From Bdellovibrio sp. KM01 (GTDB taxonomy: Bacteria > Bdellovibrionota > Bdellovibrionia > Bdellovibrionales > Bdellovibrionaceae): a DNA stretch of 64,000 bases. The stretch is taken from contig NZ_CP058348.1 in the NCBI RefSeq assembly GCF_013752535.1, positions 1,426,001 to 1,490,000 of the forward strand. Reading direction: 5' to 3'. The stretch's first letter is position 1; every line of letters starts with the position of its first letter. The notes under the pieces were generated by a model. The model did not search any database and was not told the origin of the DNA. It saw only the letters and a list, made by a program, of their open reading frames with translations. A program made the position numbers and the translations under genes. This document shows positions 6,411 through 35,799 of the stretch, in pieces.

Positions 6411-7346
6411 TTATAGGCTTGAGATATCATTCTGTAAAGCGGTAATCCTGACGTTGGATTTCAGCTTGCCTGCCAAGGACCGATCGCGAATACCTTCTGT
6501 TTCTAATTTCAATTTAATCAATTCAGGATCGCGCAAAGTTGGGTTTTGCAACATGAGGGCGGCAGCAAGTCCGGTCACCCAAGCCGTCGCCTGCGAAGTT
6601 CCTGTCATCATCCCAAATTGGCCACCGGGCAGGGAAGAGTATACGTTCTTGCCCGGGGCCGCGATATCTACACTTTGCGAACCATAATTACTGCTGTCGA
6701 TAAGATGACGATCCGAATCCATGGCTGCGACAGAGATAATATTTTTAAGCTTATAGCCAGCAGGATAGTAACCCAATTTATCGGTATCACGACCGTCATT
6801 ACCGGCGGCAGCGACAAAGAGAATTCCTTTCTCTTGAGCTTCACGGATAGCCTGCTCTTCCAGAGCACTGCGTGTGTCCCCGCCGCCGGAGTAGTTGATA
6901 ATATCGGCCTTCATTTTGATCGCATACCGAATTGCACGAACGGTATTGAGCAAGTTGACTCGGCCACTTTGTTCTGGATCGTAATATTTTAAGACCATGA
7001 ATTTCACTCGCGAAGACAGGGTCCTTTGGCGAATAATACCCGCGATATGCGTGCCATGCCCGTGACTGTCACTGACATCGCTATTTTCAGAAACAAAATT
7101 CCATCCATGGAGGTCCCCGGCATATCCGTTGCCATCGTTATCTAAGCCATTGGTTTTTTCTTTGGGATTCACCCACAAGTTGTCTTTAATAAGTGGGTGA
7201 TTGACATCGATTCCGGTGTCGATGATTGCGATGACGATGTCTTTATCAGGGTCGGTCGTGCGGGGTTGAGCAACGGAAGACCATAAAAATGGTGTTGCTG
7301 AGAGAATTCCAAAAAATGATTTCTGAAGTAAGTTAAGTGATCTCAT
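6411..7346 (-). CDS. Secreted S8 (subtilisin-family) serine peptidase
   Basis: The subtilisin triad is complete: Asp in IAIIDTGIDVNHP, His in DSHGHGTHIAGI, Ser in MMTGTSQATAWVTGL, with the oxyanion Asn in FVAAAGNDGRD. ATG 7346 is chosen over upstream in-frame starts (7370, 7397) because it gives a signal peptide (MRSLNLLQKSFFGILSATPF) and follows a GGGGG ribosome-binding run. There is no room for a long I9 propeptide between signal and catalytic domain (the Asp lies about 40 residues in), so maturation may differ from classical subtilisins. About 311 residues. The region upstream (7347-7576) shows no gene and presumably holds its promoter. Confidence 0.92.
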   Translation of the reverse strand: MRSLNLLQKSFFGILSATPFLWSSVAQPRTTDPDKDIVIAIIDTGIDVNHPLIKDNLWVNPKEKTNGLDNDGNGYAGDLHGWNFVSENSDVSDSHGHGTHIAGIIRQRTLSSRVKFMVLKYYDPEQSGRVNLLNTVRAIRYAIKMKADIINYSGGGDTRSALEEQAIREAQEKGILFVAAAGNDGRDTDKLGYYPAGYKLKNIISVAAMDSDRHLIDSSNYGSQSVDIAAPGKNVYSSLPGGQFGMMTGTSQATAWVTGLAAALMLQNPTLRDPELIKLKLETEGIRDRSLAGKLKSNVRITALQNDISSL

Positions 7347-7576
7347 GTCTGCCCCCGTGAATAGGGACATTGCATTTGGCGGGCCAGGTATAAGCAAATC
7401 TAATGCGGTCTCATCCGGAGATTTGTCACTTGTGTTTAGAAATCGCTATACAGGGTCTGAGGGCGTTTCAGGTGTCTAAAAGGCGACATACATAGACAAC
7501 TTTTATACAGGGGTTCATAAGTTCGTCTTTTTCGACCCCTAGAATTGCTTATGATGGAACAGTCTTTATCGCGGGG

Positions 7577-7760
7577 ATTGAAGTCCCCCTTGGATCTGTC
7601 TTAGTCCCATCCGCCTGGGGATGCTCACTTCGCGACACGCCATCCGGGCTCAGCCGTGGCCCGCCAGCGGCGGGTGCGCGCCATCGTGGCGCCCACGGAG
7701 GTCGCTTCGTGGGCATCCCCAGTCGGCTGTGCCTAAGCCAGCTCCAAGGGGGCCTTCAAT
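7577..7760. repeat. Long palindromic element, copy 1 (core shared with 35169-35354)
   Basis: A 184-base imperfect inverted repeat. The left arm from ATTGAAGTCCCCCTTGGA (7577) pairs with the right arm ending at 7760; roughly four of five positions match over about 60 bases. The centre (7631-7705) contains smaller hairpins, CCCGCC-AGC-GGCGGG and GCGCCA-TCG-TGGCGC. The central core recurs inverted at 35225-35296. It lies between the divergent subtilisin and msrC genes, ending about 50 bases before msrC. A transcript would fold into a long rod. I see no transposase or tRNA nearby. A non-autonomous mobile element or structured RNA are both possible. Confidence 0.8.
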
Positions 7761-7810: not shown

Positions 7811-8311
7811 ATGGAAGCATCTACTGTTCGTATTTCTTATCAGGATAAAGTTAAGTTTTATAAAGAATTGAATTCTGAAGCTGCGGGTATTGCGGAGCGG
7901 GAGTGGTTTGTTAATTTGGCTAATTTTTCTGCGCTTTTGAATCAGCATTTGCCGGAGATTAATTGGGTTGGTTTTTACCTGAACCATAATGGGGAGCTTT
8001 TGCTTTCGTCATTTCAAGGCCTGCCGGCTTGTACTCGTATTAAGATGGGGAAGGGTGTTTGTGGGACTGCTGCGCAGACTTTACAAAGTCAGCTAGTGCC
8101 GGATGTTCATCAGTTTCCGGGGCATATAGCTTGTGATGCTCGGTCGCGTAGCGAGGTTGTGATTCCACTAGTCTTGGGGGATCGTCTGTTGGGTGTGCTT
8201 GATATTGATTCGCCTCATTTGAATCGTTTTGATTTGGAAGATGTGAAGGGACTTGAGGATTTTGCTCGCATCTTGCTTGAGAAGACGGTGTGGCCGATTT
8301 CGTTTGCTTAA
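7811..8311 (+). CDS. msrC: Free methionine-(R)-sulfoxide reductase, GAF-domain
   Basis: 166 residues forming a single GAF domain with the fRMsr signature: GKGVCGTAA, then VPDVHQFPGHIACDARSRSEVVIP, carrying two of the family's active-site Cys, and NWVGFYL near the start. The enzyme reduces free Met-R-sulfoxide using thioredoxin and protects against oxidants in the cytoplasm. ATG 7811 is chosen because the frame upstream (to 7709) runs into the palindromic repeat and has no family match. Codon use is conspicuously T/G-rich and C-poor compared with neighbours. It converges on the diguanylate cyclase gene across a shared terminator. Confidence 0.93.
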   Translation: MEASTVRISYQDKVKFYKELNSEAAGIAEREWFVNLANFSALLNQHLPEINWVGFYLNHNGELLLSSFQGLPACTRIKMGKGVCGTAAQTLQSQLVPDVHQFPGHIACDARSRSEVVIPLVLGDRLLGVLDIDSPHLNRFDLEDVKGLEDFARILLEKTVWPISFA

Positions 8312-32424: not shown

Positions 32425-33426
32425 ATGGCATTAATTGATTCACAAAAATTTTATAAGGACTTGGAAAAGGGCAACCTTGCTCCAATGTACTTCTTGTTCG
32501 GTGAAGAACCGTATTTGTTGAATCAAAGTGTCGAACGTTTCAAATACGCTGTGCTGACTGAAGGCGCGATCGATTTCAATTACAGCCTGTTTTACGCAAG
32601 TGACGCTGATATCGTTCAAGTTCGTGACGCTGTTGAAACTCTGCCGATGATGGCGCCACGTCGTTTGGTGATCCTGAAGGAAGCGCAAGAACTCACCGAC
32701 AAAGAATGGTCGCAACTGGAACCCTTGATCGAGGAGCCAGTGGATAGCACGTGCTTTGTGATCTTAGCTTCACGCGTGGATAAGCGTAAAAAACAAATCC
32801 GCCAACTTTTGGACAAAGCCGAATGTGTCGAGTTCAAGAAACCTTACGAAAACCAAGTTCCTTCGTGGATCAACTACATCGCTGAAACTTTGGGTTTGAA
32901 AATCTCCAACGACGCAATTCATTTGCTGCACAAATTGGTCGGACATCACCTGACTGAAATCGAAGCCGAGTTGAAAAAGCTGGGGGAGTTCGTCGAAGGT
33001 GCTCGCCGTATCGAAGTGCAAGATGTCGCGCAAGTGGTGTCTCGCTCTAAAGAAGAAAGTGTTTTTGATTTCACCAAAGCTGTGGGTCTGAATGATCGCG
33101 TGAAGGCACTCGAGTACCTGGTTCATCTTTTGGATCAAGGGCAAAACGAAATCGGTATTATCTCTTTGGTGGCCCGCCATATTCGTATTTTGCTTGCGGT
33201 TAAGAAGGGGATGGAGGAAGGCCTGCACGGAGCAAAGCTTGCTCACTATGCCCAGGTTCCTCCCTATTTCCTTGAGAACTACAGCGAGCAAGCTCGCCTG
33301 TGGACTGCAAAAAAATTAGAGCAAACCATGGTCGTTTTGTCTGAGACTGACAAGGCTCTAAAATCATCACCACTTTCCAGCCACATTTGGCTAGAGAATA
33401 TGGTCCTAAAAACCTGCACGGCTTAA
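32425..33426 (+). CDS. holA: DNA polymerase III delta subunit
   Basis: 333 residues. N-terminal MYFLFGEEPYLLNQSVERFK corresponds to the P-loop-like start of HolA; MAPRRLVILKEAQEL, VILASRVDKRKKQIRQL, LGLKISNDAIHLLHKLVGHHL and ESVFDFTKAVG are all family-typical, and the C-terminal helical domain is complete. Delta opens the beta clamp within the clamp loader. lptE-holA adjacency is common in proteobacteria. Its stop codon TAA is the first three bases of the left arm of a palindrome. Confidence 0.95.
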   Translation: MALIDSQKFYKDLEKGNLAPMYFLFGEEPYLLNQSVERFKYAVLTEGAIDFNYSLFYASDADIVQVRDAVETLPMMAPRRLVILKEAQELTDKEWSQLEPLIEEPVDSTCFVILASRVDKRKKQIRQLLDKAECVEFKKPYENQVPSWINYIAETLGLKISNDAIHLLHKLVGHHLTEIEAELKKLGEFVEGARRIEVQDVAQVVSRSKEESVFDFTKAVGLNDRVKALEYLVHLLDQGQNEIGIISLVARHIRILLAVKKGMEEGLHGAKLAHYAQVPPYFLENYSEQARLWTAKKLEQTMVVLSETDKALKSSPLSSHIWLENMVLKTCTA

Positions 33427-33549
33427 TTTCAGTGAAAAAGGTCCAACTGCTGCGTTGTCGGGCGGCTTTCTCGCTTCAGCGTGCCTGGGGCACGCCTGCG
33501 CGGCGCGTGCCTTCTCCGCCTTGCATTTGGGCCTTTTTGACTGAAATTA
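33424..33549. repeat. 126-base palindromic element directly behind holA
   Basis: End arms TAATTTCAGTGAAAAAGG.. (33424-33446) and the complement at 33527-33549 match at 21 of 23 positions. The inside is GC-rich with a perfect hairpin GCGTGCC-TGG-GGCACGC (33479-33495). The left arm overlaps the holA stop. No T-run follows, so it does not look like a simple terminator. The rest of the gap to 33736 holds the short hairpin at 33567 and no gene. Looks like a REP/MITE-type element. Confidence 0.8.
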
Positions 33550-34269: not shown

Positions 34270-35097
34270 TTGATTACATCAGTAGCGGTTTCCCACTCGG
34301 AAGCCGCAATGCCTATTTTAATAGATCAATCCGGCCTATTTCCCCAAATCGAATGCTCAATCCAAGAGATCCGTGGATTGTGCGCTCTGGATTTAGGAGC
34401 AGAAAACACTTTCATTTCAGCGAGAGCCGCCAAAGGCTTAAAAATCACCGGCGAGCAATCCATGCAAACCCTTGGCGGGATCGAAACATATCCCACAGTA
34501 GAAATTAAATCGTTAAAAATAGGCGGCGAACAGCTAGCCCAAAACTTTAAATCTTTAGTGCAACTAGAAATCCCAACAACCTCAGGCCAAGAACTGATCG
34601 GCACCATTGGAGCCGATGCCATCAAAGACAAAACCCTCATCATCGATAACGTTAGAATCCTGTCAACATCAGCAGCAATTTACATCAACCCAACCCAAGA
34701 ACAATTGAAGCCTTTCAAAACCACAGGCAAATTGATCCCGGCAAAACGTCCCATCATAGAAATCAAAATAGGCAACAAAATCGCTAAAGCCTTAATAGAC
34801 ACCCACGCCCAAAGCGCAGTAACCGGTACCTTCGTAAAAAACAACCCCGAGCTATTCCAACTATTAGGCCGCGAGCAAAAAACCGACATAGCAGGCTTCA
34901 CAAAGTCCTATATGATGGCCCAACCCACAGCACAAATCTGCATCCAAAACCAATGCACAAAAAACCTATGGCCCTACATGGTCATACCACCCCAAGAAAA
35001 CATAGATATCATCCTAGGCATAGACTACATCCAACAATACACCTGGCTCCTATCTCCAAGGAACGCCACCTTTTCCGCAATCATAAAGAAAAAATAG
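34270..35097 (+). CDS. Secreted two-lobed retropepsin-like protein; start uncertain
   Basis: 275 residues from TTG 34270. Two similar halves each contain an aspartic-protease-like turn: ALDLGAENTFIS (Asp41) and ALIDTHAQSAVTG (Asp177), each preceded by a strand of the PIIEIKIG type. Neither is the standard D-T/S-G, so activity is uncertain. A TTG start truncates the signal to ITSVAVSHSEA; extending upstream to an ATT at 34243 gives a full hydrophobic signal (LNLKLFLLLITSVAVSHSEA), with AGGA nine bases before it. Base use is markedly A/C-rich and G-poor on the coding strand, unlike neighbours. It could be a periplasmic peptidase or a binding protein. Confidence 0.75.
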   Translation: MITSVAVSHSEAAMPILIDQSGLFPQIECSIQEIRGLCALDLGAENTFISARAAKGLKITGEQSMQTLGGIETYPTVEIKSLKIGGEQLAQNFKSLVQLEIPTTSGQELIGTIGADAIKDKTLIIDNVRILSTSAAIYINPTQEQLKPFKTTGKLIPAKRPIIEIKIGNKIAKALIDTHAQSAVTGTFVKNNPELFQLLGREQKTDIAGFTKSYMMAQPTAQICIQNQCTKNLWPYMVIPPQENIDIILGIDYIQQYTWLLSPRNATFSAIIKKK

Positions 35098-35168: not shown

Positions 35169-35354
35169 CACTTTGAACAAGAATCCTGTTCTTGGGCTTG
35201 GCTGTGGGGAGGGACGCGTGTGCAGCGACCTCCGTCGGCGCAGGATGCGCGAACCCGCCAAAGGCGGGCGACGGTGAGCCCGGATGGCGTGTCGCGGAAC
35301 ACGCGTCCCTCCCCACAGCCAAACCCAAGCACCGCGAACCACCGTCTCAAAGTG
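35169..35354. repeat. Long palindromic element, copy 2 (core shared with 7577-7760)
   Basis: Main arms 35191-35229 and 35291-35329 pair at 36 of 39 positions (GGCTGTGGGGAGGGACGCGT type), with short outer arms CACTTTGA / TCAAAGTG. The core 35225-35296 matches copy 1's core in inverse orientation: CGACACGCCATCCGGGCTCA is identical, and GCGACCTCCGT plus GGCGC also match. The arms outside the core are unrelated between copies. It fills most of the 308-base gap 35098-35406, where no gene is seen. Confidence 0.8.
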
Positions 35355-35406: not shown

Positions 35407-35799
35407 ATGGCAGCAGACTTTCAGAAAATCAACATTCCAACGATAGAGGACAAAGCCGGTGGCTTCCGCCGTCAGTATCCGCGTCGTGTGATGAAACGCA
35501 AAATAGGCGTCCTGTGTGACGGTTCCTATTTTATCGTGGAATCTGGAGAGATCGGTGAAGGTGGTATGTCGATTATTTCCGATTATCTGCTCAATGAAGG
35601 TGACGAAGTCGTCGTGAGCTTTCAAATCCCTCAGGGGGATTTCGTGTTTCTGCGTGGGGTGGTTCGTTCCACACAAAAAAAGCAGGGTGACGCGACGGTC
35701 ACCCATGGTCTTAGCTTTAGCAATATTAACTTTGCTACTAAAAGACAAATTCGCGCCTTTGTATCAGCGCGAACTCATTCCTCTTCTCAAGCTGCTTAA
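35407..35799 (+). CDS. PilZ-domain protein
   Basis: 130 residues, mostly one PilZ domain. The first c-di-GMP box is present as RRQYPRR (RxxxR type). The second, normally D/N-x-S-x-x-G, reads EIGEGGMS, with Glu and Gly in place of Asp and Ser, so binding may be weakened or lost. The strands VVVSFQIPQGDFVFLRGVV follow. Likely a cytoplasmic c-di-GMP responder or a degenerate relative. Convergent with rpsT. Confidence 0.85.
   Translation: MAADFQKINIPTIEDKAGGFRRQYPRRVMKRKIGVLCDGSYFIVESGEIGEGGMSIISDYLLNEGDEVVVSFQIPQGDFVFLRGVVRSTQKKQGDATVTHGLSFSNINFATKRQIRAFVSARTHSSSQAA

Follow-up and report, generated by a model that had tools for sequence, protein, structure and literature searches.

In terminal hairpins of the parvovirus type, small palindromes sit at the tip of long arms, and these arms are renewed by mutual copying. 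The attC sites of integrons carry a GTTRRRY core site and lie in a cassette array. REPs are 20-40 bp in length, bear a conserved GTAG/CGTC tag and are located near RAYT genes (PMC2817692, PMC8266576, PMC3733652). Precedents for arm-to-arm copying are provided by quasi-palindromes and by the inverted repeats of nematomorph mitochondria (PMC8794818, PMC6649704). By what means long, perfect stems are maintained is a long-standing question, and a compensatory change in a stem is usually read as proof of selection for RNA structure.

The present work concerns two long palindromes of Bdellovibrio sp. KM01, situated in a stretch of 64,000 nucleotides (positions 1,426,001-1,490,000 of NZ_CP058348.1) that is called the window below. 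They belong to an old repeat family, dispersed and non-coding, that occurs order-wide in Bdellovibrionales.

Two palindromes and the family they belong to

Both palindromes reported by the first-pass annotation are present, and their arms were recovered by independent repeat finding as 7577-7636/7701-7760 for copy 1 (60 nt, 82% complementary) and 35188-35229/35291-35332 for copy 2 (42 nt, 90% complementary). Their folding energies correspond to z values of -8.2 and -9.7 relative to dinucleotide shuffles, with none of 200 shuffles folding equally well in either case. The common core is genuine and has opposite orientation in the two copies. The features, in window coordinates, are the following:

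7577..7631, + strand: copy 1, 5' arm, pairing with 7706-7760
7632..7705, + strand: copy 1, conserved core (match of covariance model R1 at 7627-7710, 101.6 bits; covariation)
7632-7636/7701-7705, + strand: copy 1 core, P1
7639-7649, + strand: copy 1 core, P2 hairpin
7654-7659/7693-7698, + strand: copy 1 core, P3, enclosing P4 (7660-7674) and P5 (7678-7692)
7706..7760, + strand: copy 1, 3' arm (repeat finding and folding)
35296..35340, - strand: copy 2, 5' arm (the core is oriented along the minus strand)
35225..35295, - strand: copy 2, conserved core (R1 match at 35220-35300, 89.1 bits)
35183..35224, - strand: copy 2, 3' arm (repeat finding and folding)
6411..7397, - strand: gene left of copy 1 (from the ORF list), a putative subtilisin-like serine protease judged by eye
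7811..8311, + strand: gene right of copy 1, a putative GAF-domain protein judged by eye (the listed ORF starts earlier, at 7709)
34270..35097, + strand: gene beside copy 2, its stop codon and the 3' side of the copy 2 core being separated by about 128 nt; the element is antisense to it
35407..35799, + strand: gene that begins on the opposite side of copy 2, putatively PilZ-like (judged by eye); again, the element is antisense

A third palindrome occurs at 33424-33549 of the window (27-nt arms, 89% complementary and 72 nt apart) and does not contain the shared core.

The whole unit measures about 165-185 bp and consists of a branched, multi-hairpin core of about 75 nt within two arms. The core follows a common plan, with the P1 stem, the small P2 hairpin and P3 enclosing the P4 and P5 hairpins. 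In 40 core sequences, 97.3% of the cells pair and changes on both sides occur at 15 of 25 pairs, values that were reached by none of 500 shuffles. In these helices both sides change with hardly any G.U intermediates, and the base of P1 varies in the alignment (GCGAC, GTCGAC, GGGAC, TCGGC).

In the largest group of copies the best ungapped helix of the arms is about 31-36 bp long, and this length is narrowly distributed. Arms pair within their own copy only: the mean helix score is 24.3 for own arm pairs compared with 4.8 for arms exchanged between copies, and 116 of 123 copies lie above the 99th percentile of the swapped pairs (1% for random re-pairing). The refuting condition set by the first-pass annotation, a lack of further copies or of covarying arms, was put to the test and the idea withstood it: copies are numerous and their arms covary strongly, as the double changes between orthologues described below show. 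The description of the arms as unrelated is accurate for most copies, which are unrelated or barely related in the arms, and fails for some pairs such as L002-L005, which share the arm motif CTGCCTTGGTC..., and for many copies of genomes G003 and G006. In the latter, loop motifs are common to the inner and outer arm ends (CGCTTCGG/CCTTCGG inside, GCGACGGATTTG/CAAATCTTTGC outside) and bound a variable stretch. Another class of copies has the arm motif CTGCCTTGG/CCAAGTCAG with a retained C.T mismatch. The base composition of the 5' arm displays a lineage-dependent strand asymmetry, being G+T-rich (64%) in G003/G006 copies and A-poor (15%) in those of G000.

A BLAST search with the core found 22 similar places in the source chromosome, and covariance model R1, built from 40 cores, found 31 copies in this finished genome; therefore, the likeness of the two cores is not due to chance. 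R1 detected copies in 22 of 24 Bdellovibrio genomes (3-31 per genome) and gave a match in 9 of 66 genera of the order. Most of the inspected matches from other genera are built alike, their arms being perfect over roughly 30-47 bp and once more differing from copy to copy, and a few weak ones lack such a hairpin. Chance similarity or an assembly artefact can be dismissed on the strength of the 31 copies in one finished chromosome, the 22 of 24 genomes of the genus and the arm pairs above the swap control. No Rfam family matched the palindromes above the gathering score, and the view that no such family has been described holds for Rfam and for the open-access full-text literature. Nothing convincing was found in viral and plasmid collections, and a pattern scan of all genomes returned outside Bdellovibrio mostly chance 17-mers. 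One diverged member, at L145:1900-2400 (G014), is the orthologue of copy L019 and is missed by the model; it contains a foreign insertion of about 80 nt within the core and an A/T-rich, altered inner arm.

Position relative to genes and transcripts

None of 124 copies overlaps a called gene; the copies are intergenic and lie near gene 3' ends (gene calls were made by a simple codon-score method). The contexts are convergent for 55 copies, tandem sense for 28, tandem antisense for 31 and divergent for 5. The two palindromes of the window are exceptions to the usual placement, copy 1 lying between divergent genes and copy 2 being antisense to both neighbours. At 28 independent loci the stop codon of a sense gene lies within 85 nt of P1, compared with a single locus for the mirror arrangement. 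A canonical terminator is found between stop codon and hairpin in 0 of 38 stop-adjacent copies and within 220 nt beyond the hairpin in 5 of 38, compared with 26 of 86 other genes; of the 29 copies with the stop codon 86-180 nt away, a terminator intervenes in 23. Copies that occur in close pairs, at nine loci of the genus and one related genus, always point inward, as would follow if each were in sense orientation to its own gene of a convergent pair. An intrinsic terminator has a short G+C hairpin followed by a T run; the stem of the family, in contrast, is far longer and branched and has no consistent T run, since among stop-adjacent copies 5 of 24 and 6 of 13 carry such a run on the right-hand side of the arm.

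A transcript containing the element has been reported in B. bacteriovorus HD100, namely the attack-phase transcript APsRNA6 (1,338,787-1,339,441, plus strand; PMC3627812). The published coordinates apply to genome G001, because the published position of merRNA holds a c-di-GMP-I riboswitch there. APsRNA6 contains a sense-oriented copy at 1,339,154-1,339,241 and ends inside a second, inverted and partial copy. As it extends for about 200 nt beyond the sense-oriented core, the sense element does not end it. Directly before the repeat there is an ORF of about 89 codons (MNTELGAFALRQV...; L325:788-1442; G001:C1:1338787-1339441), so that APsRNA6, rather than being non-coding, may be an mRNA whose 3' UTR contains the element.

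Evolution of the arms and its possible causes

In 45 comparisons of orthologues, 223 compensated double changes were counted in the arms; for pairs in helix context only, the counts are 161 double changes, 50 single changes and 19 two-site mismatches. When each pair is taken once and up to 45 nt from the core, 28 doubles occur between G003 and G006 and 73 between G000 and G014, compared with 0.34 and 1.8 expected if sites were independent. Many of the tests reuse orthologous copies, and counts of independent loci are given where relevant. The doubles amount to 0.085 and 0.129 per pair, respectively, compared with 0.056 and 0.098 differences per flanking site, that is 1.3-1.5 times the per-site divergence of flanks that are only a proxy for neutrality. 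The ratio of transitions to transversions among doubles is similar to that of the flanks in both comparisons (17:11 vs 112:74, p = 1.0, for G003/G006; 39:34 vs 240:269, p = 0.32, for G000/G014). If compensation took the classical path, by way of an intermediate that is harmful or G.U, the rate should be slower and transitions in excess (theory cited in PMC8794818); copying from arm to arm predicts the pattern observed. New arm mismatches comprise 12 G.T and 13 A.C, and thus show no RNA wobble preference, which argues against a leading role of RNA pairing.

The doubles are bursty, with 15 and 9 at two G003/G006 loci and 0-2 at seven others, and bear no relation to flank divergence. Orthologues L108 and L116 differ by 15 doubles, yet have three core differences and flanks that are about 96% identical. 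An indel is matched in both arms of L104-/L117-, and in L109/L121 the left arms are identical and a perfectly complementary right arm is present only in L121. The bursts, the matched indel and the one-arm case all point to copying between arms; import of diverged alleles by recombination could also cause the bursts and the L109 case. Isolated, long-lived mismatches are strand-asymmetric (C.T 52, A.C 34, G.T 12, G.A 4) in all gene contexts, and no effect of transcription direction on the type of mismatch was seen.

By a narrow balance of probability, the complementarity of the arms is maintained chiefly through DNA-level copying between the two arms of a copy, with a constrained core and a unit that is tolerated or useful. 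Replication or repair would encounter the hairpin, and the nascent strand would switch template and copy the opposite arm, as in quasi-palindrome correction; a mutation in either arm would thus be erased or mirrored. The core would be held by sequence constraint, and the whole unit may be tolerated or may serve, when in sense orientation, as a folded structure of the 3' UTR. Copying is favoured over base-by-base RNA compensation as the way in which the arms stay complementary because of the rate and spectrum of the paired changes, which occur at or above the flank rate, have the transition-transversion mix of the flanks and do not favour G.T over A.C. Paired arm changes beyond independent mutation, with a neutral-like spectrum and rate, are also what characterizes quasi-palindromes. 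Against copying, parts of the arms resist it, namely the internal loops at both arm ends and the C.T mismatch kept in one class; simple copying does not predict the strand asymmetry of isolated mismatches, and arm length is narrowly distributed. The conserved core and loops, the kept arm mismatch, the near-constant arm length and the orientation rule support the conclusion that the structure is constrained as well. Of the two origins proposed at first for the pairing arms, selection of the rod and a copying mechanism, both were thus retained in part, copying for the upkeep of complementarity and selection for the structure; the further idea that copying creates the arms at insertion gains no support from the presence/absence cases, which are deletions at short repeats, half elements or ambiguous.

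Selection on the folded RNA, in which a sense 3'-UTR structure (protecting the mRNA 3' end, offering an RNase III site or signalling the end of transcription) is restored by a second mutation compensating each arm mutation, is a rather unlikely explanation of the arms, even if the most substantial of the alternatives. It agrees with the sense orientation next to stop codons, the distribution of terminators around the hairpin, the inward pairs, the narrow arm length with conserved loops and mismatches, and the published transcript that spans one copy. It is contradicted by the lack of a G.U excess over A.C on the core strand among both new (12 vs 13) and isolated (12 vs 34) mismatches, by tandem contexts in which sense copies are only as many as antisense ones, by paired changes at or above the flank rate without the transition bias expected via G.U, and by the continuation of APsRNA6 beyond the sense element. 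Selection could act instead on DNA, on a cruciform or single-stranded hairpin bound by a protein of the nucleoid, of the replication terminus or of transposition, with pairing being important on either strand and sequence only in core and loops. The near equality of G.T and A.C among new mismatches, the conservation of core and loops and the occurrence of copies in both orientations are in line with this proposal; nevertheless we consider it improbable, as no candidate protein was found, stepwise compensation should be slower than neutral change although the paired changes run at or above the flank rate, and the orientation rule at stop codons is left unexplained. It is doubtful to a similar degree that the branched core actively promotes hairpin-primed copying of the arms, perhaps outward into the host flank, which would let the palindrome rewrite itself and spread or persist without a transposase in the manner of hairpin-ended replicons.

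A non-autonomous mobile element of the REP/RAYT or MITE type, which on insertion would duplicate the host flank in inverted form and whose arms would differ as the sites differ, would account for the copy number and dispersal of the family, and RAYT-type genes were detected in 21 of 24 genomes. However, a search for the RAYT domain found none in G002, G012 and G015, which hold 17, 7 and 10 copies, and the nearest RAYT-type gene of the source genome is about 12 kb from any listed copy, which bears out the earlier remark that no transposase is nearby. As far as tested, RAYT transposases do not explain the repeat family. Genome G000 encodes 12 RAYT-type (Y1 transposase) genes, the highest count in the genus. 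The presence/absence pair L115/L153 has a 6-nt junction overlap (TATTTT) that insertion with a target-site duplication could have left; a deletion in the other strain is equally possible, and the pair is counted with L143 and L092/L156 as ambiguous. The remaining cases comprise half elements (L144, L146) and deletions between short repeats of the palindrome itself (L009/L154, L095/L157), and the losses are therefore typical palindrome deletions; no clean empty site or clean recent insertion was caught among them. Near-identical copies at two places of one MAG also speak for mobility. In this case (L030 on contig C71 of G016 and L049 on C188) the element and the right flank are nearly the same and the left flanks differ, a pattern of either recent rearrangement or strain mixture. 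There are no conserved terminal repeats common to all copies, for most of the arms examined the only matches are the locus itself and its orthologues, and non-orthologous copies display no similarity of flanks beyond the hairpin. Overall, mobility of this kind is very unlikely.

Several more specific proposals were discarded. Copying of the arms from the host flank at insertion had been suggested by an apparent empty site in G010, which in fact consists of the left arm plus half a core, that is a half-deleted element. In a search for arm sources elsewhere, 20 concatenated arms matched mostly their own loci and orthologues, and phages gave nothing. The sole candidates for core inversion between orthologues were inverted copy pairs, and the apparent conserved tail of a longer mobile unit was the core of the partner copy. 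The pairs do not form a cargo-carrying unit either: their inner sequences are unrelated, one having a bidirectional-looking terminator, and convergent genes explain the inward orientation.

Comparison with known systems

The family is a previously unrecognised Bdellovibrio repeat at gene 3' ends, one copy of which lies inside a reported attack-phase transcript. With its many natural replicates, it suggests that copying, not selection, can produce a covariation signal, a warning against taking covariation alone as function, and the question of what maintains long, perfect stems becomes directly testable. With regard to attC sites, which were considered for their conservation of structure over sequence, the copies of the family occur singly or in pairs at dispersed sites and do not form arrays. 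Its likeness to parvovirus-type hairpins would be an analogy of shape only, given that the family consists of isolated, intergenic chromosomal units for which no replication gene was found. MITEs and other small bacterial mobile sequences (PMC2229807) are likewise short, non-coding, dispersed and structured; unlike MITEs, the family lacks terminal repeats common to all its copies, an established target duplication and a cognate transposase. It resembles REP/BIME elements in being composed of dispersed intergenic palindromes, often 3' of genes and sometimes in inverted pairs, and differs from them by a unit of about 165-185 bp in which free arms surround a branched core of 75 nt, by the lack of a GTAG/CGTC-type tag in the alignment, by its occurrence in genomes without a detected RAYT domain and by not adjoining RAYT genes in the source genome. 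With quasi-palindromes under replication template switching (PMC8794818) and the mitochondrial inverted repeats of nematomorphs (PMC6649704) it shares arms that change together, perfect stems and multi-base paired changes; unlike in those systems, the process acts here in parallel on the many copies of one bacterial family whose core is fixed, and in which the arms of related copies have diverged and each remains complementary to its partner.
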